Source: Photorhabdus thracensis
GTDB lineage: Bacteria; Pseudomonadota; Gammaproteobacteria; Enterobacterales; Enterobacteriaceae
Assembly (NCBI RefSeq): GCF_001010285.1
Contig: NZ_CP011104.1
Location: 2,604,001-2,668,000, forward strand
Length of the DNA: 64,000 nt
Direction of reading: 5' to 3'
Shown here: positions 6,704 to 56,297 of the stretch, piece by piece
Layout of the letters: each line of letters begins with the position of its first letter
Position numbering within the stretch: position 1 is the stretch's first letter
The notes under the pieces: generated by a model
Database searches by the model: none
What the model was told of the DNA's origin: nothing
Seen by the model: the letters and a program-made list of their open reading frames with translations, nothing else
Translations under genes and position numbers: made by a program

Positions 6704-6736
6704 TCTCTAAAATATTTAAATGTGCGAGTGAAATAT

Positions 6737-6985: not shown

Positions 6986-7008
6986 TTTTTAATAAAAGGG
7001 AAGCAGAA

Positions 7009-9995: not shown

Positions 9996-10014
9996 TAAAT
10001 TAAAGGAAAATACA

Positions 10015-11166: not shown

Positions 11167-12070
11167 TTTATTTTATACTTAGCACCTATTTTAGTTGGTG
11201 TAATTGTTTTGGATCGTTCTTATAAATGAATAGTGAACACGGACAGTGCGCAGGATCCGTATCGTACATATAATACGTGAGGATGACTTGTTTTCCTTGT
11301 CCTTCAGGCTGCTGCACTAAAGTGAGTTCAAAAGTTAGCGCTTTCACCTAAGCACTGTCTTGGTTTGCTGTTTATTATAAAGGACGGTGAATAAAATAGT
11401 GTATTTTATATAATATTATCCTTTAAAGTCAGGTATTTTATGCCAAAAGAAAATTTAAATAAACATTAATCATCTTATCTAAATAATGTTTATTTTTTCA
11501 ATAGAAGTGAAGGTGAAACTTATTTTAGTTATGCTTTTTAGTTTCACTACTTCTTTACTGTAAGTCATAAAACAAAATCATCTTCATAAACATTACGAAG
11601 TGAAATTTCTGAATAATAAGTTCATGCTTCTTCTGCTTAAATATTGACTGGCACGTATGAAACTTGACTTTAATATTTAAGCTTTCTTATATCACCAATA
11701 CATAGTAAGTTTACTTATTGAAGGTTAATTTTATTTTTTGTATTGATTGGAACTATATATATTTTAGATTTTTACTCTATGATTAAATGTTCGATAGTTG
11801 CCTTTACCATGCTTCAATGTAATGTATCGAGCATTTACTTTTTATATGGTAGAGTAATTATGAAAGACAAAAATATTATTTTCGTTAGCGCAGATAATTG
11901 AGATATATAATAAATATAAGATTTACAGTTGATGATTTTATAGTGAAGTTTCGATATTGTTCCATTAATCAATGAGTAAGAATAAATAGTTCCATTGGGT
12001 AGTAACTCAATATTGTTTATTTAATAAAGTTTTTCCTATTTGATTTTTTATTAAAATGAGGAGTGAGGAA
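11167..12070 (+). promoter_or_regulatory. Long intergenic region before the regulator gene
   Basis: About 900 bases hold no convincing gene. A less AT-rich segment at 11225-11365 stands out from its surroundings and may be a foreign or degraded piece; it was not identified. An imperfect inverted repeat lies at 11503-11520 and 11540-11554 (AGAAGT-gaag-GTGAAACT against AGTTTCACtACTTCT). The rest is AT-rich and probably carries the regulator promoter. The ribosome site of the regulator is GTGAGGA at 12063-12069. Confidence 0.4.
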
Positions 12071-12772
12071 ATGTCAAGAACCGAAAGACTCATAGTGTTA
12101 TTGCAATACTTAAGACAAAGAAGATATCCTGTCAGTGGTAAGTTACTGGCTGGCGATTTAAATGTAAGTTTGCGAACCCTTTATCGAGATATTGCTTTGC
12201 TAAATAGTCAGGGAGCAAATATAGAAGGTGAACCAGGTTTAGGTTATACATTAAGACCGGGTTTTATGTTGCCTCCTTTAATGTTTACAATGGATGAAAT
12301 TGATGCTTTAGTTTTAGGTAACAAATGGGTTATTGAACAAAATGATGTTGTTTTGGCTAAATCTGCTCATAGTTTTATATCTAAGATCGCGGCAGTACTT
12401 CCCGAAGAACAGCGCGCTCAGCTATACTGTTCGCCAATGTTTGTAAAAACGGAAGGTTATAGTAAAGTTACTGATAATAATTCGATATTATCTGATATTA
12501 GGAAAGCGATATATCATAAAGAAAAGATAGTGATAACTTTCTTTGGTTTAAATAATGTACGTACAGTGAAAACTACTTGTCCATTGTCGATTTTTTTCAA
12601 TAATGAATTCTTTTTAGTTTCTTGGTGTGAATTTAGTCATGAATTTATCAAGTTACAAGTAGAAAAAATAGAAAAATTAGAAGTGTTATCGGAAAAATAT
12701 ATACAAGATCGAATATTATTGCTAAAAAAATGGGGTGAGAAAGAAGGATTGTCTGAGAGTTATTTATCTTGA
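12071..12772 (+). CDS. antJ: HTH-WYL transcriptional regulator, AntJ-like
   Basis: This 233-residue regulator has an N-terminal HTH_11 domain (residues 3-60, with SLRTLYRDIALL as recognition helix) and a C-terminal WYL-type domain (about 135-200). It belongs to the YafY/DeoR-like WYL family. In Photorhabdus a WYL protein named AntJ activates the antA-I operon and controls pigment heterogeneity between primary and secondary cells. The location just after antI and the domain match make this the best candidate. The AUG at 12071 with GTGAGGA upstream is preferred to the one at 12056. Confidence 0.75.
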   Translation: MSRTERLIVLLQYLRQRRYPVSGKLLAGDLNVSLRTLYRDIALLNSQGANIEGEPGLGYTLRPGFMLPPLMFTMDEIDALVLGNKWVIEQNDVVLAKSAHSFISKIAAVLPEEQRAQLYCSPMFVKTEGYSKVTDNNSILSDIRKAIYHKEKIVITFFGLNNVRTVKTTCPLSIFFNNEFFLVSWCEFSHEFIKLQVEKIEKLEVLSEKYIQDRILLLKKWGEKEGLSESYLS

Positions 12773-12818
12773 TAAACGATTATTACTAAACAATTGATAT
12801 GGATACTTATCTAATTTT

Positions 12819-12860
12819 AAGCCGATTCAATAAAAATCATGATTTTTATTGAATCGGCTT
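12819..12860. terminator. 42-bp perfect palindrome, bidirectional terminator
   Basis: Two 21-base arms pair perfectly with no spacer (left arm begins AAGCCGATTCAATAAAAATC). It lies between a plus-strand and a minus-strand gene that converge. T-runs lie inside and beside the stem on both strands, which suits termination in both directions. Confidence 0.75.
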
Positions 12861-12933
12861 TACTTTATGGCTTAAGGCAGAGTTTAAAACTCGTATTCTT
12901 CACATAATTATAAATAATTCAATGGAGGAAAAT

Positions 12934-13278
12934 CTACCATTTCCATGTGTCTGGGCTGGTTCCAGAAGGTAATACACCAATTCCATAATCGCTAATGACA
13001 ACGGCAACATATATATCATTGTCATAACAATCTAATTGATATCTCCTTCCTTTTTCAGTCCATCGCCAATAATCAGTTTTCCCGCTTTCAGGATAGAATT
13101 CTTGAAGAAGTGAAGCGGTTGCTGGATATAATCCATTGATATTTAGAGCGCTCGTATTTGAAGAGTTACTCCAAAACACATCACCTGTTAAAATTTTATT
13201 GGTTATATTAACAACGAAAAAGTAATGGCTATTAACGCCAAGCATTTTACCTTTTTCTTTTTTCTCAATTTCTTTCAT
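12934..13278 (-). CDS. Small hypothetical protein
   Basis: This 114-residue protein was not recognised. The start has an excellent ribosome site (AGGAG, seven bases upstream). The N-terminus is charged (KEIEKKEKGK) and the remainder is rich in Tyr, Trp, Asn and Ser with alternating hydrophobic residues, suggesting a compact beta-rich domain without a signal peptide or membrane segment. The C-terminus ends DTWKW. It stands alone between the ant regulator and transposon debris, so context gives no function. Confidence 0.6.
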   Translation of the reverse strand: MKEIEKKEKGKMLGVNSHYFFVVNITNKILTGDVFWSNSSNTSALNINGLYPATASLLQEFYPESGKTDYWRWTEKGRRYQLDCYDNDIYVAVVISDYGIGVLPSGTSPDTWKW

Positions 13279-13517
13279 CTTAGGCTCCTGAACTAATGGA
13301 TAAAGTTGCTGATAATCATATAGAGATAACCATAGGTTTTTTTTGGAATTTCTATTTTTGCTGCTATAAATTAAATAGCCATGACGATAATTACAGTAGA
13401 AATAGATACAGAGTAAATATATTTTTATACTTGGCGGATTCGACTAATAAGTGCAATTTTTTAGAAAGGCGGTCAGTTGCTATAGTAGGCATCTTTCCCG
13501 CCACAAGAGAATGCACT

Positions 13518-13950
13518 ATGGCCTATACACAACTACCGAAACTGAAAGATACACGATTTCCAGTTTAAAAAAAGCTGGTTTTTCACCGTTTTTCATTGCT
13601 GATTCACTTAAGCTAAACCCATCGACCATCAACAGAGAATTGAAGAGAAATCAAAAAGTCCAGACATACTGCCCGAACAGGCTCATTTGAAGGTATTGGC
13701 TCGTCGTCATTTTGCTAAGCAAGCCGTAAAAATAACACCTGAAGTAAAAAAATGGATAAAACGGTTAATCAGACAATACTTTCCAAAGGGAACCGATTTT
13801 AATGAAGTCTCTGATCAGGAAATAAATTATGTAGGAAACCGATTAAATCATCGCCCGCGAAAAACACGGGGGGTAAAACACCGAATGAATTATTTAAGGG
13901 AATACGAACATGCTTACTTCCAGATTAACGATGTTGCACTTATTATGTGA
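13518..13950 (+). pseudogene. IS30-family transposase relic
   Basis: The IS30 N-terminus (MAYTQL..., then ERYTISSLKKAGFS and a helix-turn-helix ending INRELKRN) and C-terminus (LIRQYFPKGTDFNEV and LNHRPRKTRG) are recognisable, but the catalytic middle is missing. The two halves join at KKWIKRLIRQYFPK near 13750-13785. Frame changes occur near 13545, 13670 and the G-run at 13868. It cannot code for a working transposase. Confidence 0.8.
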
Positions 13951-14427
13951 ATCTACCCTTCATTATTTTAACTTGGATATATTTTTCTTAAAGAATCTAA
14001 TTGTCACAGCATCTTATCGGATGGAAAATTATATATCAGATATTTTTATAGTAGTGAAAAAATAGGAAATGTAAAGTATATCGTCATTGTGTTTTACCTG
14101 AATGCCATGGGAAATCGAGTCGGTGATCTTTGGGTAAGCTGACTGAAATTGCTGGTGAGAACCTGAAAAATACTATTTCTGATGAAAATTGGTTTGTAAA
14201 AGTCTGGATGGATGCAGTTTCATCTGCTGCTAACGAAACGTAACTGGATGTATTTCCGAATGAATGTATCTGGAGTATGACATCAATATTATCATCGGAG
14301 TTTTATCCGAATTAATCCTCATATGTTTTTCATCGTGAGTGCTGATTTTAATAAAAAGTGGTTGCAATATATAGTAATATTTACTACGGTAAATATTACT
14401 ATATAAAACTTTGTTCGGCTTACGGAA
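13951..14427 (+). other. Degraded region, no intact gene
   Basis: Only fragments of old coding sequence remain. One frame at about 14128-14240 reads through GKLTEIAGENLKN and ENWFVKVWMDAVSSAA before a stop, which looks like a true but unidentified protein fragment. No promoter or RNA structure stands out. Confidence 0.35.
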
Positions 14428-14760
14428 ATGAGAATTTTTGCCACAGATGATTTTTCGGTTTTCATGGAAGATAGTTTATTGACTAATAAGGATATTTGTC
14501 AATCTGCCAGAAATAATAGGAGGATTGGTAGACGCTAATCTTGGCGGTGATCTTTTTAAAAAAAGAATCGCTTTTGGGGAATAGGGAAAAGTGGTAGCAC
14601 CCGTTTTGTTTTTGCGTTCAGGTATCATGATAAAATGATTTTTATCTTAAAAAAGATGTAGCAAAATCGGGTAAAGAAATTCCCGATAAGCTGTTGAAGA
14701 TGTATAAGTTGCTAGCCAAAGACCTTCTTAATATCAGTGATAAAAATATTGAAGATATAC
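14428..14760 (+). pseudogene. RelE/HigB-type toxin fossil
   Basis: Fragments in successive frames follow the RelE-like (COG4737-type) toxin pattern in order: MRIFATDDFSVFM, then GGLVDANLGGDLFKKRIA, GKSGSTRFVFAFRYHDKMIFI, and finally KSGKEIPDKLLKMYKLLAKD. At least three single-base shifts separate these blocks (near 14510, 14585 and 14650). No intact partner antitoxin gene follows, because the sequence runs into a repeat and an insertion element. Confidence 0.65.
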
Positions 14761-14813
14761 CCTTCATCTTTCAAGTTGCTGCTTTGTTGGCTGCGTTCAC
14801 TTACCCCAGTCAC
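14757..14813. repeat. Partial enterobacterial dispersed repeat
   Basis: The segment containing CTTTCAAGTTGCTGC and CTGCGTTCACTTACCCCAGT resembles a short dispersed intergenic repeat that I recall as common in Photorhabdus and Xenorhabdus genomes. It is cut off by the terminal repeat of the ISAs1-family element. The family assignment is from memory; only one copy is seen in this window. Confidence 0.4.
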
Positions 14814-16043
14814 CAGGGCACGAGCATACTTTGACTGCTATTCATCCAAAGAAAACTCTTGCCCGATAATCATCGCACCAACCCGCTTTTTTAAGCTTGT
14901 TCCTTTGGCTCGGTGCCCCGCAATCGCATTGTTTGACCAGATTCAGGACGATACGACGGAATAAGGCCAGATTCTCAACTGCACCCTCCAGAACAATTCG
15001 TGAATCATCTTCTTTAAAGACCACATCAAGAATATAGTGCTGGGTATTTTCAATCCGCCAATGCTGGCGAATATAATATCCCAGTGATTTATGCTTGGGC
15101 GAAAGGGAACTCACATAATAAGACGTGTCCACCGTTCCTTTGCCATTTTGTGTCCGGTGACGTTCTACGGCGATAATGCTACGAATGGTCGGCCATTTCT
15201 CGATTAATTCTGCCGTAAATTGGGGCTTTAACTGAAACACATAACGCTCTTCACGCCGGCCATGGGCTTCTTGCTTAACTTCCGTGATAATTTTTTCTTT
15301 ACCGGCATCAAACACCGCCTGAAATTGCGATTGGACGGCTTCCCACAGATGGGGTTGATTTTTTTTCACCTGAACCACGACATGGGCTTTCTTTTCGCTG
15401 ATTTTTTCCAGCGTTTGGCGCTGACAATGCAAAGCATCCAGCGTGACGATGCTGCCTTTCAGGTCAAGGATATCCAACATCTGCCGCACGATACTGATTT
15501 CCCCGTTTTTCGTGGCAGTGGCTTTCTGGCTCAGGACTAATCCTTGTTCCGTATCATATGCCGTGACCAGTTGGACGGCGTTTTGCTTTTCATTACGGTA
15601 GGCGCGTCGCAGAACTTTTCCATCGAAGGCAATGACCGGTTTCCCTGCCTGTTCACGTTGTTCATTGATCCAGTTGAGCAAAGCCTCCAACAGCGAATCA
15701 AGTTCAATAGCGCGCACAATTCTGGCAACCGTGTGTCGGCATGGTATTCCACTGAGAAAGGGGCGATATTTTTTCAGCCACGTAATTTTGGCCCGACCAT
15801 AAGTTTCAATATCTTGCCAACCTTCAGCGCCAGCGAGAATGGCGCTGATGACAAGAAAAATAACATCAATCAGCTCGTATTGACGATTGATGTCAGAACG
15901 AGTTTCTTTCACAACGGTTAAATGTTCAATCAGGGTCTGGTTCGGATTCATGGGCCAGTATTAAAAAGAAAAATAAGGAGAATGAGATCATATAATTACG
16001 GTTCATTCAAGGGGGGGGGGTAAAAAAGTATGCTCGCGCCCTG
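14814..16043 (-). mobile_element. Complete ISAs1-family insertion sequence
   Basis: Terminal inverted repeats of 19 bases with one mismatch (14814-14832 and 16025-16043, CAGGGC[A/G]CGAGCATACTTT) bracket a full transposase gene, giving an element of 1230 bp. The flanks show no target duplication, and the two sides belong to unrelated sequences (a repeat on the left, a broken HNH gene on the right). This points to a deletion or recombination next to the element. A run of ten Gs lies at 16011-16020 inside the right end. Confidence 0.85.
14842..15951 (-). CDS. ISAs1-family (H-repeat type) transposase
   Basis: This 369-residue protein is full length for the family. Catalytic Asp residues appear in AFDGKVLRRAY (near residue 128) and VTLDALHCQ (near 194), with a C-terminal YYIRQHWRIEN motif supplying the Glu. 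The N-terminal DDE_Tnp_1-associated domain is present. No frame break is seen, so the copy may still be active. Confidence 0.92.
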   Translation of the reverse strand: MNPNQTLIEHLTVVKETRSDINRQYELIDVIFLVISAILAGAEGWQDIETYGRAKITWLKKYRPFLSGIPCRHTVARIVRAIELDSLLEALLNWINEQREQAGKPVIAFDGKVLRRAYRNEKQNAVQLVTAYDTEQGLVLSQKATATKNGEISIVRQMLDILDLKGSIVTLDALHCQRQTLEKISEKKAHVVVQVKKNQPHLWEAVQSQFQAVFDAGKEKIITEVKQEAHGRREERYVFQLKPQFTAELIEKWPTIRSIIAVERHRTQNGKGTVDTSYYVSSLSPKHKSLGYYIRQHWRIENTQHYILDVVFKEDDSRIVLEGAVENLALFRRIVLNLVKQCDCGAPSQRNKLKKAGWCDDYRARVFFG

Positions 16044-17085
16044 GGGTTGCTGTGACGCTGCAATCATTACATACCTTGATGACTTGATAAAAATCCTCTG
16101 ACTTCCCGTCATAGAAATATTTTGAAATAAGCTGAAAAGTCCATTTTCCTTTATTAGATTTACGAACACAGTACAGCTTAGAGCGTAAACATACAGGGCA
16201 GCACCAATGATCGGGAGTTTTTCCCCAGCGCTCTTTATTTAAATTGATCAGGTGCTGAAGCTCTCCCGATGTCGGTTGGGTTGAAGAAAATGGTTATCTT
16301 TTCCGCCTCCATGAGTCCGCATCTCCTATAAATTTTTTTGATTTATAAAGTAAACTTTCAGGGTATCCAGGTTTGATTTTATCAAGTCCATAATAATTAA
16401 TTCTGTACCTGGCGGTTCTTTCAGTCTGCTTTGCGGTTCTTTCCGAAGGTTGATACCAATGCCTGTTATTTGCCCCAATTTCTGCTATTTTTCTTACAAA
16501 AGAACATCGGAGATAAAATGTCTCCTTACACTCTTGCCAAAGTGCTATTGCCGCATTACCGTCAATTTCGTGATCACGATTGGGTAATGGCAAAATAAAT
16601 CTTTTTATTTCAGATGGGGAAAAAGAAAACGCTTCTGGTGTTTTGGCTATTTTCTTTGCTCTTGCGTCTGCATAATTACAATCAGCACAAATGATAGTAT
16701 TGTCGTAAGCAGAAAAAGCAAATGCCGTTCTTACAACAAAACGCTCAGCCAAGAAATCTGCAATGACGATATCGTTATTTTGTGAAATTCGGGTAAATTC
16801 ATCTTTCACAAAATCGGTCATGTGATCATGATGCTCATGCAAGTGTCCAGTAAGATAACCATGTTTGTTTTTTCTTATTATCTCTCGCTTTGTTCTTTGG
16901 CAGCATGGGCATATCCAAGTAGTCGGAGTAAGAATCCACCAACGATTCAGATCCATGCCTTTCGCAGAAAATTTCTCGATCAACTTTGTATATGAAAAAG
17001 AATACTCGCTGTCCAATCCAGCCAGTTCGTTTTCGTTCAAATACTCAATAAGCTCATCTTCACTGTTAAACATTTCTTTTCTCAT
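16044..17085 (-). pseudogene. HNH-endonuclease-like gene with in-frame stop, cut by an IS
   Basis: Residues 1-263 form one open part with CPCC, then HLHEHHDH, then ICADCN, a Cys4/His pattern as in HNH nucleases. A TAA stop lies at 16294-16296, but the same frame continues open to the ISAs1 end with a second Cys-rich unit (CCPVC, then VCNDC). The protein was therefore probably longer, with two zinc sites, and was broken first by a nonsense change or by the insertion. The 263-residue part could still be made from the ATG at 17085. The function is unproven; a defence nuclease is one option. Confidence 0.55.
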
Positions 17086-17091
17086 TTAACT

Positions 17092-17290
17092 TCAAATCTG
17101 TTTAAGAATATCCATTTCAGAACCACGTAAATCAAACTCGGCTTTTTTGTTTGGTTGAAAAGTGTAAGCAATTAATCCTGACACGACCGCCAACAAAAAG
17201 CCGGCCACCCACTGCGGTGTCTTGATGTTCTATCTGAGAGATATTTTTCAGTTGTTCCACAACCATTGCTATCAAAGAACACCTTCTTAC
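17092..17290 (-). pseudogene. Small membrane protein remnant upstream of the HNH gene
   Basis: The minus-strand frame 17092-17229 encodes a hydrophobic segment (WVAGFLLAVVSGLIAYTF) followed by a charged tail ending MDILKQI and a TGA seven bases before the HNH start. A plausible beginning (MVVEQLKNISQIE) is in another frame just upstream, so one frameshift near 17230 separates them. The two genes probably formed an operon. Confidence 0.45.
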
Positions 17291-17457
17291 TTAATATTAA
17301 CCCACCAAAAATATAAAAGTCTTTATTTTCATATTATTACGAATATTTTTCACCAGAGTAATTTTTCCCGCGGCAAGTTCATCACTCCGCGCCTGTGAGA
17401 TATATCACCTATCTCCATACACATGTCAGCTTCCCCATTTCAACCGTTTTTTAATCG
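17291..17457. other. Degraded region, nothing identified
   Basis: No open reading frame, repeat or structure of note is seen. The base composition is mixed, as expected of transposon debris. Confidence 0.3.
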
Positions 17458-17744
17458 GATGACGGATCCATCAAGTGTCAATTTGACCACGAACAGTTCC
17501 CTACAATCGTCGATAAACAGATGAAGTTTAAAACCATAAAACCAGCCTGTACTGCTTTTTCCTAGACGCGCTACGCCATCAAAGACCCGATTTTAGGGAA
17601 TACGTATGTTATGGCATACCGCTATTTTGATTGAATCAATAAAAGCAATGCCCCGGTTTTGGCTTTACACAATAAGAAAAACGCACACAAGGGAATGAGT
17701 GCTTTTTTTCAACGTGAACATGTGAGCATTCGGGTATAGCTGAC
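17458..17744 (-). pseudogene. IS982-family transposase relic
   Basis: The minus strand encodes, in shifting frames, pieces typical of IS982 transposases: AFIDSIK, CHN.RIP, NRVFDGVARLGKSSTGWF and YGFKLHLFIDD. Both ends are missing. The IS5-family element abuts it on the right. Confidence 0.6.
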
Positions 17745-17746
17745 TA

Positions 17747-18630
17747 AGAGCCTATCCCAAAAGGAATTGTCATATTGTATAATATTCTAGAACGGATAAT
17801 TTCTGAAGGTATAGAGAGTATGGCAAACAACAAATGGCGGCTCAGTGATGAACTTTGGGGAAAAATGGCGCCACTTATTCCCGAACATAAAACTCAGCAT
17901 CCGCTGGGCACACATCGTAAACGTGTTGATAACCGCGCCACTATGGATGCCATCTTCTTTGTGCTCAGAACGGGCTGCCAATGGAACGCCCTGAATGCAA
18001 CAGGAATATGCTCGTCAAGTTCGGCTCACCGTCGTTTTCAGGAATGGCGTGACGCCGGCGTTTTTGAACGCTTCTGGCAAAACGGTTTACTGGCCTGCAA
18101 GCATCTCGCGATCATCGACTGGTCGTGGTTATCACTGGATGGCTGCATGACCAAATCCCCTTTAGCGGGGACAAAAAAACAGGTCGTAACCCCACGGACC
18201 GGGGGAAACAAGGCGTAAAACGCAGTCTCATGACCGAGGCTAACGGGCTTCCTCTTTCACTCGTTGTTGCCGCGGCAAACACGCACGATATCAAATTGGT
18301 TGCAGATACGCTTGATGCACTTCAGACAGGCAAGCCGGGTAAAAAGGTCAGGCTGTGTCTGGATAAGGGATATGATGCTAAATGGCTGAAAGACTATCTA
18401 CGAAGTCGGCATTACGAGCCGCATATTCAGTCTCGCAAGGAGGAATCAGATGCCTGCCAAAATACGGACTTTAAAGCTCAAAGATGGGTTATCGAGAGGA
18501 CGCATAGCTGGATGAATCGCTTTCGTCGGATACTGATCCGATGGGAAAAGAAGGTCGAAAACTATGAAGCTATGTTACATTTTGCGTGCGGGATTATAGT
18601 TTGGAACAAAACCCTATTGGGATAGGCTCT
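17747..18630 (+). mobile_element. Complete IS5-family (ISL2/IS427-type) element
   Basis: Perfect 14-base terminal inverted repeats AGAGCCTATCCCAA (17747-17760 and 18617-18630) enclose 884 bp, with TA duplicated on both sides (17745-17746 and 18631-18632). The element sits at the 3' end of an IS1182 transposase relic. Both ends and the target duplication are intact, which suggests a recent insertion. Confidence 0.88.
17820..18625 (+). CDS. IS5-family transposase made by -1 frameshifting
   Basis: Two overlapping frames (to 18218, and from about 18125 to 18625) encode the N-terminal and catalytic halves. The first has RLSDELWGKMAPLIP and a CQW segment, the second GVKRSLMTEANG, CLDKGYD and WVIERTHSWMNRF (the DDE Asp and Glu). 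The overlap contains a run of seven As (18173-18179 region), the usual slippery site for -1 frameshifting in this group. The start at 17820 is preferred because a GAGAG site precedes it. The stop lies inside the right terminal repeat. Confidence 0.82.
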
Positions 18631-18632
18631 TA

Positions 18633-19387
18633 TCGCCTGTTATTGGAACTGACAACCCAGACAGGCTAAAAATAGCCCGTAATATCAGGGCAACGGCCCT
18701 TGATAAGTTATACGCTATGGCGTGCAAGGTAAATTCCACTCTGACTGCCGATAAACCTCTGCGCCGAAAACGCTCCAGTCCCTGGATACCCCGTAAGGCA
18801 GAAAATACCGGTTCTACCATGACTTTTCGTTGACTCAATATCCGCTTTGACTCCGGTTTGGTCATACGTGAACGCAGTTTATCCCGCGCTTCATCTTCCC
18901 GGTAACGTTTAATTTTTCTGCCCTTTTTCGCCTGCGTACAACCGGATTGACTGTGATGTAATACGGATGAAGCTCCCCCTTCAAAAAACGAGCCCGTCAG
19001 CGTGGATTGATGTTGATAGATGAAACGTCCAAGGCTGGCGTGCTCAGGTGTCATGCCATGACTGACAAAGAGACATCCCAAATCCAGACGTGCCAGCCGT
19101 TCAAGTCCTCTGAGAGAACGGCTCCCTTTCATGAGCCCATCAAGCAGAATGCCCATCATGGAACGTGGGGAATACGGTGCTCTACCGGATGAGGCGTAAT
19201 CGCGTTCGAAAGGGGCCCAATCCTGCTCATCAAGGATATCGGAGACAATAAATGCAGTGCGTTCCCCCACTGGCTTCAAATAGTCATGGAGGAAAAGAGT
19301 TCCCTTCAGTACAGTGAGGTGCTGAGCGGTGACAAACTGACGCCCGGTATGAACGGAAGGTGTCAGTTGCCGTAGGAATTTAGTCAT
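18633..19387 (-). pseudogene. IS1182-family transposase with internal deletion
   Basis: An open frame fuses the N-terminal DUF772-like region (to about residue 135, LTGSFFEGG) with a C-terminal segment containing CTQAKKGRKIKRY and EPVFSALRGIQGLERFRRRG. The total of about 257 residues compares with roughly 450-550 in intact relatives, so the central DDE region is gone. The last codons now come from the neighbouring IS5-family element. Confidence 0.75.
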
Positions 19388-44113: not shown

Positions 44114-45111
44114 ATGTCACTTGGTGATGAGATTGTCACCCGAATTACCCGGGTCGGTGCGCAGCACACTGTACTCGTTTCTCCTCCACAAAGCGTTCCC
44201 GGACCAGCGGCTGCTCGCGTGGGCGACCCGATTAAACATGCCAGTTTCCTCGGTGCGCTGGCTGGGGCTATTCCGGTGTCCTGATAAGTGCTGCGGTATT
44301 TGCCGTGGCGGCTGCCGTAGTCGTGGGTACCGGCGGATTAGCCACTGTTGCAGTGATTGCACTGGGCACTGCCGGTACTCTGGCCCTGGGGAAGGTTATC
44401 AGTGCCGCCAGTTCGGCCGTCACGAACATGGTGGACAGCATCGGCCCGCCCAGTGGGGCGCTGGCGACCGGTTCCCCGAATGTGTTTATTGAAGGCAAAC
44501 CGGCGGCCCGGGCCATAGTCGATACTGTCGCTTGCAATAAACACCCGGCACCGCCGCTGATTGCTCAGGGCAGTGAAACGGTATTTATCAATGACTCCCC
44601 AGCGGCTCGGGTTGATGACAAACTGGCCTGTGGCGCGACCATCAAAGCCGGGGCTAAAACCGTATTTATCGGCTCTGGTCGGGGCACCTACTTAGAAGTT
44701 GCCGAAGAGATCTCCGCCTGGGAACGGGCAATACTGATAGCTGTTGAGTTTCTGGTACCGCCATCTCGGGGCTCCATCAAGGGTATCGGTAAACTGTTTA
44801 CCAAAGCTGGTCAGGGCGTGCTGAAAGGTGTCGTGGCCGGGGCTAAACATGCCTGGAAAATCATATCGGGCGGAACCTTTTCCTGCGCTAAGAAAGTTTT
44901 TAAAGAAACCCAGGGTGTGAAACGTTATTGGGAAAGCGCCAAGGCGCACCGCTGGCGTTTTGGCGCGCACAGCAAAACCCTGCCTGCCGGTCCCAAACGC
45001 AGTCAGTTTGAGGAAGATGCCGATACCGATATCGCGGTGCTGGAAACCCAGCTCTCACGCCTGCATATCAAGGAAGACGCGCCCGCGTCTCATCCTAAAC
45101 GTCAGCCTTAA
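44114..45111 (+). pseudogene. Orphan PAAR-domain T6SS effector gene with a frameshift
   Basis: A strong AGGAGGAG site precedes an ATG at 44114. The first frame gives 56 residues with ARVGDPIKH, the PAAR start, and stops at 44282. The next frame carries on without a gap: a hydrophobic segment (VFAVAAAVVVGTGGLA), then PAAR blocks SPNVFIEGKPAARA and GSETVFINDSPAARVDD, then about 100 residues of unassigned C-terminus ending at 45111. One single-base shift near 44270-44285 separates them. The C-terminal part may be a toxin domain or its remnant. No VgrG is nearby. Confidence 0.7.
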
Positions 45112-45112
45112 C

Positions 45113-45434
45113 AGAGCAAGTTACCTATGTTAAAGGAATAAAAAAGAACTCTGATTTATTTATCAAAATGTTAGATGAACTGAATCATCAATATCCCCAT
45201 GCGGAAACCCTCACATTAATCTTAGATAACTCCGGTATACATAAAAGTCAGAAGGTAAAGGACTGGCTGGCACGACATCCAAAATTTACTCTGTTGTTTT
45301 TACCCGTCTATTCACCGTGGTTAAATAAAATAGAACGGTTATGGCAATCGCTCCATGAGACAATAACACAAAATCATTGTTGTCAATTTTGGCATCGTTT
45401 TCATCACAGCAAAAACCAGGAAGGTAAAAAATGA
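45113..45434 (+). pseudogene. IS630-family transposase fragment
   Basis: Only the C-terminal DDE region remains: LILDNSGIHKS with the second Asp, FLPVYSPWLNKIERLW with the Glu. It begins directly after the PAAR gene stop and lacks the N-terminal half. It is not the same IS630 type as the complete element at 53.2 kb. Confidence 0.75.
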
Positions 45435-48923: not shown

Positions 48924-50156
48924 ATGAAAAATTTTTCTCTTAAGAGTTATACATCCATCCCGGCATGTATATGGGGTCTATTTCTGGGGACTTTTATAAC
49001 AAGGTCAACATCAATGATGGTATGGCCTTTTATCTCCATCATATTATATACAAAGTTCCATTTTACTGCATCGATGATTGGGTTAGTTCTCTCTCTATCC
49101 ATTGCGATTTCATCAATATTAAGTTTTTATGCAGGTTACTTCTCTGATAAAGTTGGCCGGGCCAAGATAATTATCATTGGCTGTCTTATATCTTCACTGG
49201 CATATTTAATATTATGGCTATCCGAGCATCAGTCTGGTTTTATTCTTGGCACGTTATTAGCGAATATCTCTTGGGCGCTGGTTAACAATCCAATAAAAGC
49301 AGTTATCGGCGATATTATCGAAGAAAAACAGGTAAGAGAGAATGCCATGTATTTAAGGTATTTATTTCTGAATGCGGGTGCGGTAGTCGGACCTTATTTA
49401 GGGGTAAAGTTAAGCCTGGATATTAATTCTATCTCTTTTCTGATTGTATCGGTATCCTATGTAACTTTTATGATCCCGGTTTATCTATTTGGGAAGAAAA
49501 TAAAAATAAACTTAACTAATGATGATGATTTTAAAGGCACGATAAAGATTTTATTGAATGATCGGGTGTTTTTAATGTTGGTCATCAATAATATTCTCAT
49601 GATGTTTATTTTTGGTCATTTTGATTCAACTCTGCCGCAGTTAATTACTTCATTAGGGTTTAGTGGATATGCTGAGTTTATTGCTTCGCTTATTATGCTG
49701 CATGCGGTAACCATTGTGATTATGCAGTTGCCGTTTTCCATGTTAACGCAGCAAATGTCATTGGAAACGAAGATAAAAATAGGCACTGTATTACTCATTT
49801 TATCTGAATTAATGTTCTTTATTTCATTCAAGTATTATGATGTCTATTTATTGTGGTATCTGGCTGCGTTTACCATGAGTATCAGTCAAACTATTTTATT
49901 TCCATGTGTGAATGTTTTTATTGATCGTTTGGCACCAAATGATTTACGTGGTGCATATTTTGGCGCAGCATCACTTTATAGTATCGGCTTTTCTATCTCT
50001 CCATTAGTGGGTGGTACTGTTATTCAATTCTTTGATGGTGGCGTGTTATTTCAATTATTAGCGATATTAAGTGTGTTGGTGTTGGTAATTTTTTGCCGTA
50101 TGTTTAAACTAAGGGATAAACATGAAATTAATATTAGAAGAAGTCTCGAATCTTAG
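48924..50156 (+). CDS. Major facilitator superfamily exporter
   Basis: This 410-residue protein has about 12 membrane helices. The loop 2-3 motif of the MFS is visible as GYFSDKVGRAKIIIIG (near residue 72). As the first gene of a biosynthetic operon it probably exports the product, giving self-protection. Fosmidomycin resistance proteins are also MFS exporters, but a specific relation was not tested. Its 3' end overlaps the next gene by 35 bases. Confidence 0.82.
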   Translation: MKNFSLKSYTSIPACIWGLFLGTFITRSTSMMVWPFISIILYTKFHFTASMIGLVLSLSIAISSILSFYAGYFSDKVGRAKIIIIGCLISSLAYLILWLSEHQSGFILGTLLANISWALVNNPIKAVIGDIIEEKQVRENAMYLRYLFLNAGAVVGPYLGVKLSLDINSISFLIVSVSYVTFMIPVYLFGKKIKINLTNDDDFKGTIKILLNDRVFLMLVINNILMMFIFGHFDSTLPQLITSLGFSGYAEFIASLIMLHAVTIVIMQLPFSMLTQQMSLETKIKIGTVLLILSELMFFISFKYYDVYLLWYLAAFTMSISQTILFPCVNVFIDRLAPNDLRGAYFGAASLYSIGFSISPLVGGTVIQFFDGGVLFQLLAILSVLVLVIFCRMFKLRDKHEINIRRSLES

Positions 50157-50517
50157 ACCAACTGAATTACATTGTCCTGTTCGTGTTGAGCAGTTAATAG
50201 ATAAAGTTAAACTTGAAGGTTTTTGGACTCAACCCATCTGGATTGATGAAGCAACGAATGTGGTGATTGATGGTCATCATAGACTTGAATTAGCCAAAAC
50301 ACTTAAGTTAAGTTGTATTCCTTGTCTGGCATTTGATTACCAGAAGGAGCTGTTGGTTTATTCACGTAATGAGAATAAAACAATTAGTCATAATGATGTT
50401 ATTCAGGCGGGTCTGGATGGGCAACCACTGGGTTATAAACAGACTCGTCATGAGTTTGCCGGGAATGTTATTGAAACACAAATTTCGTTAAAAATGTTAG
50501 GGTTTATCAATGAATAA
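50122..50517 (+). CDS. ParB/Srx-fold amino acid kinase, SbnI/SerK-like
   Basis: This 131-residue protein belongs to the ParB-like nuclease fold but is a single domain with the key residues of free-serine kinases (SbnI, archaeal SerK): LRPTE near residue 12 and DGHHRLELA near 50. Such enzymes phosphorylate L-serine to O-phospho-L-serine. The short length lacks any helix-turn-helix, arguing against a plasmid-partition role. It overlaps both neighbours, so it is translated as part of the operon. The substrate is inferred from the family. Confidence 0.7.
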   Translation: MKLILEEVSNLRPTELHCPVRVEQLIDKVKLEGFWTQPIWIDEATNVVIDGHHRLELAKTLKLSCIPCLAFDYQKELLVYSRNENKTISHNDVIQAGLDGQPLGYKQTRHEFAGNVIETQISLKMLGFINE

Positions 50518-51706
50518 GCAGTTTTATGATGTTGTAATGTGTGGTGCAGGTCCTGCAAATATCTCTTTAATTCCAGATTTATTAAAAGATGAAGCCATAA
50601 GAAATTGTCTGATTTTAGAAAAAACCGAGATGGTCGGCTCTGGCGCATTAAAGAAATATAAAATTACTGCGAACTCTTTAGGTAGTGTATTTTTAGAGAA
50701 GTTTGACGGTTGTGATGATGAATTGAGTCAATATATAAGATCAACCTCAGAATGGGAATATTTTAGTGCCAATAGAGATAAACCGGTTGAATTGAGGTTT
50801 GTCGGTCAATATTTAGAGAGAATTGCACGTTTTATTCAGGAAAATAAATATGGTGATCAGTTTTGCGTATTGACCGGTACGGAAGTAAAAAAGATCAAGC
50901 AGAATGAAAATGGTGACTATGATATAACTTATCATAAAGATAATGAAGACTATATTGTATCAACACGAAAAGTCCTGTTTAATATAGGTGGAAACCCGAA
51001 CGAATCCAGATTATTACATAATAGTAATAATATGACTTCAGGTGATTTCATTAAAGGTGTTTATGATGAGGTCATCAATAAAGGTGATATAAAAAGTATA
51101 TCCATATTAGGTTCGTCACACAGTTCTGTTTCCTGTTTGATTCGGCTGATAGAACAATTAAAGTTTACCGGCAAGATAAATGTTCTGGTTAATAAAGATT
51201 TCAAGCTGTTTTTTGATTCACCTGCAAGTGCTGAATCTTACAGCTATGATTTCACCCAAGAAGATATCTGTCCTTTAAGTGGCCGGGTTAATCGATATTC
51301 AGGTCTGAGATATGACTCTTTTATATTTGCACAAGAACTTAAAGCAAGAAAACATAAAAATATCTCTATTTTAAATATCTCAGAAATATCTGGTGATGAG
51401 GTTATTCAACGTATTAATTGTGACGATTTATTAATTCACTGTACGGGGTACCACTCTAAACTTGTTGAAATCATTGATAAAAATAATATTCCTCTTGAAT
51501 TTAAAAGTGATAAATATGGTTTGCTGACTAATACAAAATTAAATCCTATATCAACATCGGGTGAAACGCTCAATAATTTTCATACATTTGGCCTGGGGTC
51601 GGGTGTAAAGACCGGTGGTGAAATTGGTGGCGAAGCAAGTTTCCACGGACGAATTGACGGGGTTTGGGTATATCAGCATGTTATATATGACGCTGTATTT
51701 AATTGA
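50510..51706 (+). CDS. FAD/NAD(P)-dependent N-monooxygenase-like enzyme
   Basis: This 398-residue protein has an N-terminal FAD site (VMCGAGPANISLIPDLL, residues 9-25) and a second dinucleotide site (ISILGSSHSSVSCL, near residue 200). A late HCTGYHSK motif (near 308) resembles the ATGY signature of class B flavin N-hydroxylases. It would hydroxylate a primary amine, as FrbG does in FR-900098 biosynthesis. It could also be a general flavoprotein oxidoreductase. It overlaps the kinase gene by eight bases. Confidence 0.65.
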   Translation: MNKQFYDVVMCGAGPANISLIPDLLKDEAIRNCLILEKTEMVGSGALKKYKITANSLGSVFLEKFDGCDDELSQYIRSTSEWEYFSANRDKPVELRFVGQYLERIARFIQENKYGDQFCVLTGTEVKKIKQNENGDYDITYHKDNEDYIVSTRKVLFNIGGNPNESRLLHNSNNMTSGDFIKGVYDEVINKGDIKSISILGSSHSSVSCLIRLIEQLKFTGKINVLVNKDFKLFFDSPASAESYSYDFTQEDICPLSGRVNRYSGLRYDSFIFAQELKARKHKNISILNISEISGDEVIQRINCDDLLIHCTGYHSKLVEIIDKNNIPLEFKSDKYGLLTNTKLNPISTSGETLNNFHTFGLGSGVKTGGEIGGEASFHGRIDGVWVYQHVIYDAVFN

Positions 51707-53151
51707 TAAATAAATATCAATCTTACATTATTAACAGGCTATATTTTAGGTTAATTCTTATTTAAGAATACCGATAGCTTTCTAACATCTATTTAAAATA
51801 AATTATCAAAACTATGAATGAAAAAACAGTAATACTGCTTTGTGCAGGAAGAGGTAGCCGGTTATCTACCAGAACATCAAATAAACCAAAGCCTTTGGTA
51901 GAAACAAATCAAATATCACTTATCGATAATGCACTGAAAAATATCGAATCTGTCGGTATTAAGAAAGTGATTATTGTGGTGGGTTATAAAAGTGATGTTT
52001 TAATGTCTCATATTAAACAAAAGACATATAACCTGGATATTGAATTTGTTAATAGTGAAAAATGGGAATCGACCAATAATCTCTACTCTTTATATCTTGC
52101 CAGAAACTGGATTAAGCAAGATACGCTGATCCTGGAAGGCGATATATTCTTCACCAAGAAATGCTTGGAAACAGTGATATTAAAAGCAGGAGATCTCAAT
52201 GTCTTGGTTTCTCCTCTTAGTGGGAATATGGAAGGGACTTATGCAAAAATAGATAAAGATAATATTATTGCATTAAATTCCACCAAGGATAGTAATTATC
52301 AGATTGAAGATGGGCAATATAAGACAGTAAATATTTATCATATTTGCAGCGCAAATTTTGCAGAATATGTGAATAAAGAGTTAGAAAATTACGTTAATAA
52401 TGGATTAACCGGGCTATATTATGAAGATATATTTAAAAAATCTTTATTGGATAATATAGCTGAATTTAAGGCAAGTATTGTTGATCATTCTCAATGGTAT
52501 GAAGTCGATAATACTTATGATCTTGCTATTTGTGATTTCATTTCAAGTAATAACAAGCTGGATCTTGTGCAGAATAGACATGGTGGATATTGGCGTTATC
52601 CTATTATTGATTTTGCATTAATTTATAATTTCAACTTTCCACCTAAAAAATTGAAAGATGAAATGAAGAATAATTTTGATGAGATATTACTCAATTATCC
52701 TGGTGGAAATCGTTTAGTTGAATACGCTTTATCTGAATTTCTAGGCATAGAAAAAACGAAATTATGTATTTCAAATGGTGCTGCTGAAATAATAAAACGG
52801 CTACCTGAGATTTATACAGGTAAAGTATTAGTCACTGTGCCATCATTTAATGAGTATGCTAATTGCTTTGGTAAAGACAGAACAATATTTAGCTATAGCA
52901 AAGAGAGCAGAGATTTTGAGATAGATGTTGATGAATTATTAATGTTGGCGAAAGAAGAAAAGCCAGGTGTGGTGGTAATTGAGTCACCAAATAACCCGAC
53001 AGGTAAACTGACGCCGATTAATAGTTTGTTATATCTGGCAGGCGAGTTATTGACATTAAATATAGATTTGATTGTTGATGAATCTTTCTTGGATTTTTCT
53101 AAAATGCGTGATGATACAATGTTAATGCATTTAGATAATTATAATAATTTA

Positions 53152-54248
53152 TACCCGCTTAACTTGAAGATGCAGTATTCATAACCTGGAAGTTGTCATT
53201 AATACGGCACGACAGGTTCCCGGCCAGTTCCGGTAATATTTCCGTAAAAAAGCGATGTATTGCCTGCTTGAACAAGGTCGTCGAGGCGAAATAATGGTTA
53301 TTCCTGACTTGTTCATTCATCACCTTCCACAGCCTTTCTATCGGGTTCAGATTCGGGCTGTACGGTGGCAGGTAATGAAGCTCAATATTCATCACATAAG
53401 CCCAGTCTTTCACCAGCCTGCTTCGGTGGTAACCAGCTCCGTCAAGGATAATATGAACCTTCTGACTGACCGGATAGGTTTCACGCAGAGCAATGAAAAA
53501 CTCTGCGATGTGATAACTGTCGATACGGTCATACTCGCGTACTACCGTTTTACTAATATCAGCCAGATTAAGGGCCCCCATCAGGTTCAGACGGGTACGG
53601 CTTCCCGTGGTTTTCACCGCGGTTTTCTGGCCTTTTCGCATCCAGCCATAAGCCAGTTTCGTCCCCTGCGTGGGATGGACGCCATCAATGAACAGGATGG
53701 GCTCATGGTCTCCGGCTTCCTGCTTGAGTTTCCCGTAGGTTTCTATAAAGGCCCGCTGCTGTTCCGCGTTGAACTTGTGTGGCACGCCGGTCGGCTTTTT
53801 ATAACTGAATCCCTGGTGGTGCAGCCATTTATTCATGCCGGGAACGGTGTAACGGATATCCCACGCTTCTTTGACAAGGCGGATAACCGCCTGTGTGGTG
53901 GGCAGAAGATTTGCGGTCAGATAGGCGATAAGTTCCTGAGTCTGTGTTTCGCTGAGATGGCTCTGAGAGCCGCCATTTTCGGGCTTGATTTTACGGTGAT
54001 TAAGGTAATCGCTGATATGACGATGAACGGTCGTTTCATGAAGACGCAGGGCCTGAGCGATCATGACAGAACTCCAGCCCTCAGAGGCCAGGAGGACCGC
54101 TTTGATGCGATCACACTCTCTCTTATCACGGCAGGTGTGATGGAGATGTTCAAGTTCGGCTTTTTGTTCATCGGTAATGAATATTTTCATGACAGATACC
54201 ATGAACCTCATTTGGGCGAAAATCAAGCAGTTTCAATGATTACGGGTA
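53152..54248 (-). mobile_element. Complete IS630-family element
   Basis: The ends TACCCG (53152) and CGGGTA (54248) begin imperfect inverted repeats, and TA is duplicated at 53150-53151 and 54249-54250. The length is 1097 bp. The borders are fixed by the host gene: only this choice joins the two halves in frame as NNL-SVIRSMSK. Confidence 0.88.
53159..54187 (-). CDS. IS630-family transposase
   Basis: This protein of about 342 residues (start at 54187, MKIFITDEQ; a reading from 54226 would begin at the element end) has an N-terminal helix-turn-helix (WSSVMIAQALRLHETTVHRHI). The DDE triad is FIDGVHP, IILDGAGYH and LNPIERLWK. Full length with no frame break. It transposes into TA sites. Confidence 0.9.
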   Translation of the reverse strand, partial: KIFITDEQKAELEHLHHTCRDKRECDRIKAVLLASEGWSSVMIAQALRLHETTVHRHISDYLNHRKIKPENGGSQSHLSETQTQELIAYLTANLLPTTQAVIRLVKEAWDIRYTVPGMNKWLHHQGFSYKKPTGVPHKFNAEQQRAFIETYGKLKQEAGDHEPILFIDGVHPTQGTKLAYGWMRKGQKTAVKTTGSRTRLNLMGALNLADISKTVVREYDRIDSYHIAEFFIALRETYPVSQKVHIILDGAGYHRSRLVKDWAYVMNIELHYLPPYSPNLNPIERLWKVMNEQVRNNHYFASTTLFKQAIHRFFTEILPELAGNLSCRINDNFQVMNTASSS

Positions 54249-54765
54249 TATCTGTTATTCGCAGCATGAGTAAAACCTTTGGCATTGGTGGTATTCGGAT
54301 AGGATATATTACAACCGCGAATCAAGCATTATTGGGTAAAGTGAGATCAGTATTGCCTATTTGGAATATTAATGGTTTTGCTGAAGAGTTTTTATTGCGG
54401 TTGCCACAATATAGAGAGAGCTATAAATTAAGCTGTGAACAGGTGATTATTGATACGTTAAAATTACAGCAAGAATTAAATTCAATCGAAGGTATTACTG
54501 CCTATGAAACGGATTCTAATTTTGTTTACTGTAAATTCCATGTTTCCGATGCAAAAACGGTATCACAGTTACTTTTAGATATTCATGGCGTGTATATAAA
54601 AGAGTGCTCCGGGAAAGGAAATGCCGATTCTGATCTATATTGCCGGATATCTTGCCGGACACAAAGTGACAATGAAATTTTAATCCATTCATTGCGCATG
54701 GTGATACAGGGGCTGATTAATATTAGTGATATTAGCACGATTAAGGAAATTAACGAGGTCTGCGA

Positions 54766-55440
54766 ATGAGTCATCCAAAAACAGTAGTGATTTGTGGTAA
54801 AGGAGAATTGGCAATTTTCATTTGTCAGTATTTCTTAAATCATAAAGATTATCAAATATTGCACGTTGTGGCAGATAAATTTGAACCTGTCAGTACTGAG
54901 CAGACATTAATAGATTTCTGTCATGAAAATAATATTTCTATTATTGAAGACAATAAAGTTGAAAATCTACCCGGTTATGAAAATGGTGATTTTAATTGTG
55001 ATTTGTGCTTTGTTGTATTTCATAAGCGGATATTGCCGTCAAAATTCATTAATTCTTGTAAAAGAATATTGAATATTCATTTATCCCATTTACCTAAATA
55101 TCGCGGCGTCAGGCCAGTAAACTGGGCTTTGAAAAATGGCGAGTCATCTCATGGTGTGACGATTCATGAAATTAATGAAGGTATTGATGCAGGTCCAATT
55201 GTGAATCAGGTTTCATTTTCTATTTATCCAGAGTTTGAAGAGGTTATTGATACTTATACCCGGGCTGTTAGTTATGCCAGACAATTATTCCTTGATACCA
55301 TGCCAATGGTGGAAAAAATAAGTCCAAGACCTCAAATGGATTCAGAGGCCAGTATTTATTATGAGAGAGATAATCATAAGTTGGCAGAAAGGATGACATT
55401 TACCAAGAAAGCATCGCTTGAATTGCTGAATAAAGCATAG
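54766..55440 (+). CDS. Formyltransferase-fold enzyme
   Basis: This 224-residue protein matches the methionyl-tRNA/GAR formyltransferase catalytic domain. Asn and His are in LNIHLSHLPKYRG (near residue 105) and the catalytic Asp is in EGIDAGPIV (near 143). It lacks the C-terminal tRNA-binding domain, so a small-molecule amine or hydroxylamine is the likely acceptor, with a 10-formyl-folate donor. The start overlaps the stop of the fusion gene by four bases. In the proposed pathway it adds the formyl group after N-hydroxylation. Confidence 0.8.
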   Translation: MSHPKTVVICGKGELAIFICQYFLNHKDYQILHVVADKFEPVSTEQTLIDFCHENNISIIEDNKVENLPGYENGDFNCDLCFVVFHKRILPSKFINSCKRILNIHLSHLPKYRGVRPVNWALKNGESSHGVTIHEINEGIDAGPIVNQVSFSIYPEFEEVIDTYTRAVSYARQLFLDTMPMVEKISPRPQMDSEASIYYERDNHKLAERMTFTKKASLELLNKA

Positions 55441-55475
55441 ATAATAATTGCTTTTAATGTACCGGGGAAGTGCTC

Positions 55476-56297
55476 ATGTATAATCTTATTGCTACGGATC
55501 TTGATGGAACTCTGTTACTTCAGGGGGATACGGTAGGTAAATTTACCCGCCAAGTGTTGACTGATTTGTCAAATACGGGAAAGCAGATCGTATTTGCCAC
55601 CGGCAGGCATCATGCTGATGTGAACGCCATTATTGGTGATTTTGATATCCCTGTACACTTGATTACGTCTAATGGCGCCAGATTGACAAGTGCCTGTAAA
55701 AAGTTGGATATCAGACAATATCTACCAAGTAATGTAGTAAAAAGATTAATTGAGGAAACGCAGGCAGATCAGGATGTAGTGATTAATATGTATTGTGGTT
55801 CCCAATGGTTAACCAGTGAATTACATCATAGCTTCAGTGATTTTAATCAGAATGATAATTTTAATCCAACCATCAGACCGGCTGATGAAATGCCTTGTGA
55901 TGCTGTTGAAAAAGTTTTTTTCATTCATAAGCGCCGAGATCACGATGCGTTGGTTAAATTGGAACGCCATTTAATTGAGCTATTTTCTGATAGTGTCAGT
56001 ATCGCTTTCTCATTCCCCTGGTGTCTGGAAGTGATGGACAGCGGTGTTTCTAAGGGACAGGCTTTAATTCAGTTAGCCGGGTTTCTTGGGATTCCAATCA
56101 ATCAAACTATCGCGTTTGGCGATGGTATGAATGACGTGGAAATGCTTTCAACCGCCGCTAAAGGGGTCATCATGGGAACGGCTCAGGATAGGGTTAAACA
56201 AGCGCTGCCTCATGCGGATGTTATTGGCTCCTGCCGCGAAGAGTCTGTCGCTTATTATTTATCTGAACATGTATGTCAGGTGAATAATCTGCCCTAA
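55476..56297 (+). CDS. Cof-type HAD-IIB phosphatase
   Basis: This 273-residue protein has the HAD motifs ATDLDGTLL (residues 5-13, nucleophile Asp), TGRH near 42, Lys in SKGQAL near 193 and GDGMNDVEML near 215. It belongs to the sugar-phosphate phosphatase group (YbiV/YidA-like). The start at 55476 has a GGGGAAG site. It lies 35 bases after the formyltransferase gene in the same direction, so it might be co-transcribed, but it looks like a housekeeping family. Confidence 0.85.
   Translation: MYNLIATDLDGTLLLQGDTVGKFTRQVLTDLSNTGKQIVFATGRHHADVNAIIGDFDIPVHLITSNGARLTSACKKLDIRQYLPSNVVKRLIEETQADQDVVINMYCGSQWLTSELHHSFSDFNQNDNFNPTIRPADEMPCDAVEKVFFIHKRRDHDALVKLERHLIELFSDSVSIAFSFPWCLEVMDSGVSKGQALIQLAGFLGIPINQTIAFGDGMNDVEMLSTAAKGVIMGTAQDRVKQALPHADVIGSCREESVAYYLSEHVCQVNNLP

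Follow-up and report, generated by a model that had tools for sequence, protein, structure and literature searches.

We analyzed a 64,000-nucleotide stretch of the Photorhabdus thracensis genome (contig NZ_CP011104.1, positions 2,604,001 to 2,668,000; hereafter the window), part of a single-contig genome of 5.15 Mb, and focused on a five-gene operon at window positions 48924–55440. The operon encodes a transporter, a short serine-kinase-like protein, a flavoprotein, a nucleotidyltransferase fused to a pyridoxal phosphate (PLP) enzyme and a formyltransferase. In our reading, to which we give a probability of roughly 0.6, it is a version of the late FR-900098 pathway that works on phosphates, free of carbon–phosphorus bonds, and yields a DXR inhibitor that is linked to a nucleotide and belongs with fosfoxacin and fosfocytocin. 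With slightly better than even confidence, we propose more specifically that this is the fosfocytocin/fosfoxacin biosynthetic operon, following a cytidine monophosphate (CMP)-tethered phosphoserine route as the phosphate counterpart of FR-900098 biosynthesis, common to Photorhabdus, Photobacterium and Pseudomonas and with an N-acylated, DXR-guarded variant on a Priestia plasmid. Two of the encoded enzymes are related to FrbG and FrbH of the FR-900098 (frb) pathway, and the best evidence that such a pair makes DXR inhibitors is that a DXR gene adjoins it in two distant lineages.

Fosmidomycin targets DXR (PMC13302981), and fosfoxacin, known since 1990 (PMC9782300), is reported as a natural phosphate, the alpha-oxa analogue of fosmidomycin, from Pseudomonas fluorescens (PMC9782300, PMC9919496; here and below, cited papers are represented by excerpts). 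An earlier sequence-only reading of the window had known of no gene cluster assigned to fosfocytocin or fosfadecin, and a literature search, judged mainly by titles and with few subscription journals, found none for these compounds or for fosfoxacin among the papers listed. The same reading had proposed that phosphoserine undergoes CMP-tethered decarboxylation, N-hydroxylation and N-formylation, a route that comparison supported through the DXR gene in the Priestia operon and the operons in Pseudomonas. None of the three outcomes that it had listed as refuting was observed.

Operon layout and intact relatives

Pfam and NCBIfam searches, combined with the list of open reading frames (ORFs), bore out the five enzyme classes assigned by the sequence-only reading, as well as its start and end positions for the gene set. 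The genes lie on the forward strand. The first (48924–50156), also first in the Photorhabdus, Photobacterium and Pseudomonas operons, encodes a major facilitator superfamily (MFS) transporter that is likely the product exporter (Pfam MFS_1, 1.9e-39; drug-efflux MFS models were below cut-off). It overlaps by 35 bases the gene for a short SerK/SbnI-like protein (50122–50517; NCBIfam SerK, 2.6e-7), a candidate free-serine kinase that would supply O-phosphoserine. This gene overlaps by 8 bases that of the FrbG-type flavin-dependent N-hydroxylase (50510–51706), classed by its identity to the Streptomyces rubellomurinus frb flavoprotein and by profile comparison with the PDB. The FrbH-type fusion gene follows after a gap of 107 bases and overlaps by 4 bases the gene for the formyltransferase (54766–55440), a candidate N-formylating enzyme.

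For the fusion gene, the class assigned by the sequence-only reading was right, but the gene is not intact in the window: an IS630-family insertion sequence on the reverse strand (about 53152–54248; transposase ORF 53159–54226; NCBIfam transpos_IS630, 254 bits) splits the PLP domain. Part 1 (51814–53151, ending in ORF 51814–53184) comprises a LicC-like nucleotidyltransferase and the N-terminal half of a CobD-like PLP domain (Pfam NTP_transferase, 8.9e-12; Aminotran_1_2, 6.3e-13). Part 2, the C-terminal half of this domain with the PLP lysine (SMSKTFG), restarts near 54249 and extends to 54769 inside ORF 53255–54769 (Aminotran_1_2, 8.8e-10), matching the intact Photorhabdus protein from SVIRSMSK on. 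The ends of the element were read by eye and are accurate to a few bases; no inverted repeats of at least 14 bases were found at them. The genome contains 15 matches to the element, the window copy counted, over the whole 1,021-base query and at 100% rounded identity, so the break is probably recent. This copy number and identity are also a sign of recent expansion of the element in this strain. Because the fusion gene is broken, the window's own operon copy is probably dead and makes nothing, and the intact copies elsewhere are the ones to study.

Such copies, for which the sequence-only reading had suggested a search, were found: all eight other Photorhabdus loci, which represent seven named species and one further strain, have the five genes in unchanged order and with full-length open frames. 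Among the genome contigs, Photorhabdus khanii (94% flavoprotein identity) and P. tasmaniensis (93%) are the closest relatives at the locus. Photobacterium galatheae carries the same five genes in the same arrangement, with identities of 64% (MFS), 62% (SerK-like), 59% (flavoprotein), 67% (fusion) and 74% (formyltransferase). A scan of genome contigs with the flavoprotein profile, using two chosen peptide patterns only and therefore an incomplete census, returned 16 loci (eight Photorhabdus, one Photobacterium, two Pseudomonas, one Saccharothrix and four Streptomyces), every one of which also has an FrbH-type gene. The five-gene grouping is far more than chance. Median ratios of nonsynonymous to synonymous substitution rates, from 28 Photorhabdus pairs per gene, were 0.07 for the MFS gene, 0.13 for the SerK-like gene (highest single pair, 0.51), 0.11 for the flavoprotein gene, 0.11 for the fusion gene and 0.08 for the formyltransferase gene.

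The flavoprotein was detected in 9 of 12 Photorhabdus genomes, the window's included. The remaining three still have pgm, the HAD gene described below and kdpE in place. One of them retains, directly before the HAD gene, a 49-residue stretch with 43% identity to the formyltransferase, which suggests loss of the operon by deletion; no such remnant was found in the other two. A wider family sample gave matches in 3 of 295 genomes, all Photorhabdus. That most sampled Photorhabdus genomes have the operon suggests that it may help to fend off competitors for the insect cadaver.

The sequence-only reading was right about the five genes, but probably ended the operon one gene early. A Cof-type HAD phosphatase gene follows on the forward strand (55470–56297; TIGR00099, 154.6 bits, over the cut-off of 137). 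Its product is 49–54% identical to that of the gene after the formyltransferase gene in all four Pseudomonas operons found (see below), versus 39% for the nearest paralogue in the window's own genome, and this conserved position makes it the probable sixth operon gene. It occurs in all 12 Photorhabdus genomes, also where the operon is lost, and could alternatively be a resident gene with the operon as its neighbor. It is no strict requirement, because it is absent from the Photobacterium galatheae locus and because three Photorhabdus copies have one internal TAG in the match, one of them adjoining five open operon genes. A possible role is self-protection or processing: fosfoxacin is a phosphate ester, so a phosphatase could disarm it when freed inside the producer, a means that would fail on a phosphonate.

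Predicted enzyme functions and route

The operon and, the kinase excepted, its enzyme classes are firm. Part 1 of the fusion protein matched CTP:phosphocholine cytidylyltransferase (PDB 1jyk, 1.4e-12), a CobD-like enzyme (6oux, 6.6e-16) and 6pd1. In the intact Photorhabdus copy, the nucleotidyltransferase and CobD-like PLP domains lie in one chain that aligns over nearly the full length of FrbH, with 33% identity to the S. rubellomurinus homologue over 586 residues. The PLP lysine and the GxGxR and KP motifs of the nucleotidyltransferase are invariant in 14 aligned fusion proteins. By profile score, the PLP domain is nearer to a phosphate-amino-acid decarboxylase than to an aminotransferase: the intact Photorhabdus copy scored 164 bits with the TIGR01140 CobD model (cut-off 290.55) versus 137 bits with HisC, S. 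rubellomurinus FrbH likewise scored 161 versus 126 bits, and CobD ranked above HisC in all four fusion proteins compared (Photorhabdus, Pseudomonas, Priestia and frb). The best PDB match of the intact Photorhabdus PLP domain is again 6oux, named 'threonine phosphate decarboxylase-like enzyme' (E = 1.2e-36). FrbH is reported to cytidylylate 2-amino-4-phosphonobutyrate (PMC6697681); as this compound is described as a non-hydrolysable isostere of phosphoserine (PMC10141581), phosphoserine is a candidate substrate of the fusion.

The flavoprotein, which adjoins the FrbH-type protein, is a flavin adenine dinucleotide-binding N-monooxygenase akin to FrbG, with 26% identity to the S. rubellomurinus homologue over its length and an invariant GxGPA motif among the aligned flavoproteins. 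A 12-sequence profile had L-ornithine 5-monooxygenase 3s5w and KtzI as its best PDB matches (E ~1e-5); the search gave no FrbG entry, though the profile included the S. rubellomurinus protein. For the formyltransferase, the best PDB relatives were formyltransferase 5uin, TDP-3-aminoquinovose N-formyltransferase and ArnA. Its NIH...D residues align with those of 5uin, and we take N-H-D to be the formyltransferase active-site triad. PF00551 matched at 7.3e-24 and no second domain was found, leaving the protein without a tRNA-binding domain. In sequence, it resembles enzymes acting on nucleotide-linked amines. A review describes FrbG as recognizing, and depending on, the CMP moiety of its substrate (PMC7347517).

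The SerK-like protein has no Pfam match and looks like a shortened SerK/SbnI member. The kinase residues that the sequence-only reading had pointed to are kept: Glu15 aligns with a Glu of SerK chain 5x0b, DGHHR is present at residues 50–54, and Glu15 and D50–R54, aligned to SerK, are invariant in 10 of 10 homologues. SerK chain 5x0j has Gln at the position aligned to Glu15, from which we presume that Glu15 is the catalytic Glu. A C-terminal TR motif aligns with SbnI residues 194–220.

From these families, the following route can be proposed. O-Phosphoserine would come from the SerK-like kinase or, in pseudomonads, from ordinary serine metabolism (SerC). The FrbH-type fusion would attach CMP to the phosphate of phosphoserine and decarboxylate the adduct to CMP-phosphoethanolamine, that is, CDP-ethanolamine. 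The FrbG-type flavoenzyme would then hydroxylate the amine of this CMP-tethered intermediate, and the formyltransferase would formylate the resulting hydroxylamine. The CMP ester, of the fosfocytocin type, would exit via the MFS exporter, and release of CMP in the target cell would free 2-(N-formyl-N-hydroxyamino)ethyl phosphate, which is fosfoxacin, a mimic of the DXR substrate. Among the five genes, we recognized no CMP-releasing hydrolase gene, in keeping with a nucleotide product, although this step might fall to the HAD enzyme.

Related loci and alternative explanations

The most informative relative lies on plasmid pBM700 of Priestia megaterium, where an operon at 5832–14685, running in one direction, includes FrbG and FrbH homologues (36% and 44% identity, respectively) along with an SbnI-like kinase gene in two pieces and a pair of ATP-grasp genes. 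An AAC(3)-type acyltransferase gene stands between the two homologues, and the operon also holds a CDP-alcohol phosphatidyltransferase gene and a complete DXR gene. The operon shares with the window the FrbG–FrbH pair, the SbnI-like kinase gene and an MFS gene, here nearby on the other strand; it differs in having the acyltransferase in place of the formyltransferase and in the ATP-grasp, phosphatidyltransferase and DXR genes. The two kinase pieces matched the SbnI model at E = 5e-4 and 1.2e-7, both far below cut-off, and a second SerK-like stretch with one TAA inside lies at 1950–2123 of this plasmid. In the FrbH tree, Priestia is the sister of the window type with support of 98/98 (midpoint root, with long-branch and composition warnings). 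The plasmid DXR is presumed to be a second copy in the cell. We considered that it might belong to a plasmid terpene pathway, given an isoprenoid-type gene ~4 kb away, but prefer operon membership because its frame starts 25 bases after the end of the preceding same-strand frame. The isoprenoid-type gene stands beside a histidine kinase and a response regulator, presumably a ComQXPA locus. A possible product of the Priestia operon is a conjugated N-acyl relative of fosfoxacin.

A further branch lies on plasmids of Erwinia rhapontici and Rahnella sikkimica (~8986–19194), where the FrbG–FrbH pair is accompanied by genes for a CDP-alcohol phosphatidyltransferase and for HAD, SDR and ATP-grasp proteins. 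These plasmids yielded no PEP (phosphoenolpyruvate) mutase (the chromosomes were not searched), and the Erwinia plasmid no DXR. In Streptomyces sp. MspMP-M5 and S. katrae, the pair is followed by an AAC(3)-type acyltransferase gene. Because TIGR02320 gave no PEP mutase above its cut-off in the MspMP-M5 genome, Streptomyces may also have a pathway of the phosphate type.

In Pseudomonas, the P. piscis flavoprotein matched 42 of 398 genomes at E <= 1e-10, only four of them (P. piscis included) at 60% identity or more. The operons of these four hold MFS, FrbG-type, FrbH-type and formyltransferase-type genes, with the HAD gene after them, and are without the SerK-like gene. Thirty of the 42 matches were examined as loci, the four operon carriers among them. 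A phylum sample gave flavoprotein matches in 12 of 398 genomes. Relatives of the flavoprotein form a broad family of mostly longer proteins with ~22–28% identity and no FrbH neighbor in the stretch seen; 38 of the 398 sampled Pseudomonas genomes have one, as do 11 genomes of the phylum sample. Given this breadth, the marker is the pairing with FrbH.

An ordinary phosphonate pathway would offer another explanation: the operon would be its late module, with PEP mutase and the early genes elsewhere and a fosmidomycin- or FR-900098-like product. In S. rubellomurinus, FrbG and FrbH do act on phosphonates according to published reports (PMC6697681, PMC7347517). The sequence-only reading had noted no PEP mutase, and the window genome indeed reached at best 120 bits with TIGR02320 against a cut-off of 319.55. 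We used this model in place of PF13714, which proved unspecific, exceeding its cut-off in 14 of 17 genomes or records and likewise in 9 of the 14 controls. TIGR02320 exceeded its cut-off in 3 of the 17: P. namnaonensis and Photorhabdus sp. CRCIA-P01, both of which have the operon, and Saccharothrix. Among the operon carriers, the search took in the window genome, seven other Photorhabdus genomes (all but P. akhurstii), Photobacterium and two of the four Pseudomonas genomes; apart from the two Photorhabdus just named, none of these gave a PEP mutase above the threshold. Those two may have their PEP mutases in hvr-like loci, described as abundant in Photorhabdus and Xenorhabdus (PMC7858074). In frb, by contrast, the PEP mutase is only ~2 kb upstream of the frbG homologue (contig coordinates matched; 306 bits, just under cut-off, with one TGA in the matched stretch), and a phosphonate pathway would leave the serine-kinase-like gene without obvious use. 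We regard this explanation as very improbable and count it as rejected.

Alternatively, the CMP-activated, N-modified phosphoethanolamine could go into surface glycans or lipid head groups, in place of a secreted antibiotic. CMP activation is described as typical of cell-surface phosphocholine and aminoethylphosphonate (PMC6697681), and the Erwinia, Rahnella, Priestia and Saccharothrix relatives include a CDP-alcohol phosphatidyltransferase-like gene. At the Photorhabdus, Photobacterium and Pseudomonas loci, however, no such transferase was found and an exporter is present instead; N-hydroxylation plus N-formylation creates the metal-binding group of DXR inhibitors, and DXR lies at the Priestia and frb loci. 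A surface role is therefore unlikely in our view. A different phosphorylated amino acid, such as O-phosphothreonine, would give a methylated fosfoxacin relative, and CobD, the nearest curated decarboxylase family, acts on threonine phosphate. The matched kinase families SerK and SbnI make O-phosphoserine, archaeal SerK is reported not to accept threonine (PMC5120207), and fosfoxacin, the known natural phosphate DXR inhibitor, lacks the extra methyl, which leaves this substrate quite improbable. The product could also be a small metal-chelating hydroxamate: to judge from a title cited in PMC12704722, staphyloferrin B receives its phosphoserine from SbnI, and the flavoprotein resembles siderophore N-hydroxylases. 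Yet the operon includes no siderophore synthetase or receptor gene, a nucleotidyltransferase–decarboxylase fusion has no evident place in a siderophore pathway, and the relatives are linked to DXR; we give a chelator the slimmest of chances and count a siderophore as rejected.

Several observations weigh against the DXR-inhibitor pathway that we favor. At 131 residues, the SerK-like protein is about half as long as solved SerK/SbnI chains (242–256), and its match is weak (NCBIfam SerK, 30 bits versus a cut-off of 380; PDB E-values of 0.01–0.1 by profile). None of the four Pseudomonas operon genomes gave a match to the kinase profile, the only kinase model run on them, which means that the pathway can do without this kinase; an essential role was considered and ruled out. 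CobD, SerK and SbnI scores all fell below their equivalog cut-offs. Alone, the window flavoprotein had no PDB match and scored 20.3 with Pfam Lys_Orn_oxgnase, just under the cut-off of 21.3. No FrbH-type gene was found in the ~1.5-kb flanks of 26 of the 30 Pseudomonas loci, three of which also showed none over 15–16 kb, nor in the short flanks of any of the 11 non-window loci of the phylum sample. DXR self-resistance is not apparent either: no second DXR was found in the searched Photorhabdus, Photobacterium and Pseudomonas genomes. Kinase activity, each reaction on these substrates and the product are what we infer from sequence; that the nucleotide is CMP and stays on the product is likewise presumed, and the exact linkage in fosfocytocin is taken partly from reviews.

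Single DXR genes were counted in the searched genomes of Photorhabdus (seven), Photobacterium (one), Pseudomonas (four), Saccharothrix (one) and Streptomyces sp. MspMP-M5 (one). The single DXR of the window genome is far from the operon, at 1.10 Mb. S. rubellomurinus has two, one within the frb locus.

A promoter scan gave 28 sites versus 35.8 expected and was uninformative, and Rfam had no match in the window. Elsewhere in the window, an ORF at 44305–45111 appears to encode PAAR-like repeats, and an adjoining short ORF (45168–45434) seems transposase-like. On the corresponding side of the P. khanii-type locus, ORFs at 24–2940 look like those of nonribosomal peptide synthetases.

Implications and comparison with known systems

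If the proposal is true, an orphan antibiotic class gains a gene marker that can be searched in any genome. DXR-inhibitor chemistry would then need no phosphonate and would be missed by cluster searches keyed to PEP mutase. The proposal also makes a checkable claim about one enzyme, namely that the FrbH-type fusion accepts phosphoserine.

Among known systems, fosfoxacin, fosfocytocin and fosfadecin, known as compounds only, represent the predicted product class, an N-formyl-N-hydroxyaminoethyl phosphate that is free or nucleotide-linked. CMP activation of the PntC type, from phosphonate surface pathways, likewise joins a LicC-like cytidylyltransferase domain to a PLP enzyme (PMC6697681), but there an aminotransferase (class V according to the name of 6pd1) works with 2-aminoethylphosphonate as substrate, whereas the PLP domain of the window type is CobD-like. 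Closest is the frb locus of S. rubellomurinus ATCC 31215, where homologues of the N-hydroxylase (26% identity) and of the nucleotidyltransferase–PLP fusion (33%) are neighbors and the PLP domain is CobD-like. We take this strain to be the FR-900098 producer; FR-900098 is N-acetylated, versus the formyltransferase of the window operon. The frb contig holds a PEP mutase and an extra DXR, while the window operon has neither and has a serine-kinase-like gene. The CMP-tethered logic that we propose for the window type is reported for the frb pathway (PMC7347517).

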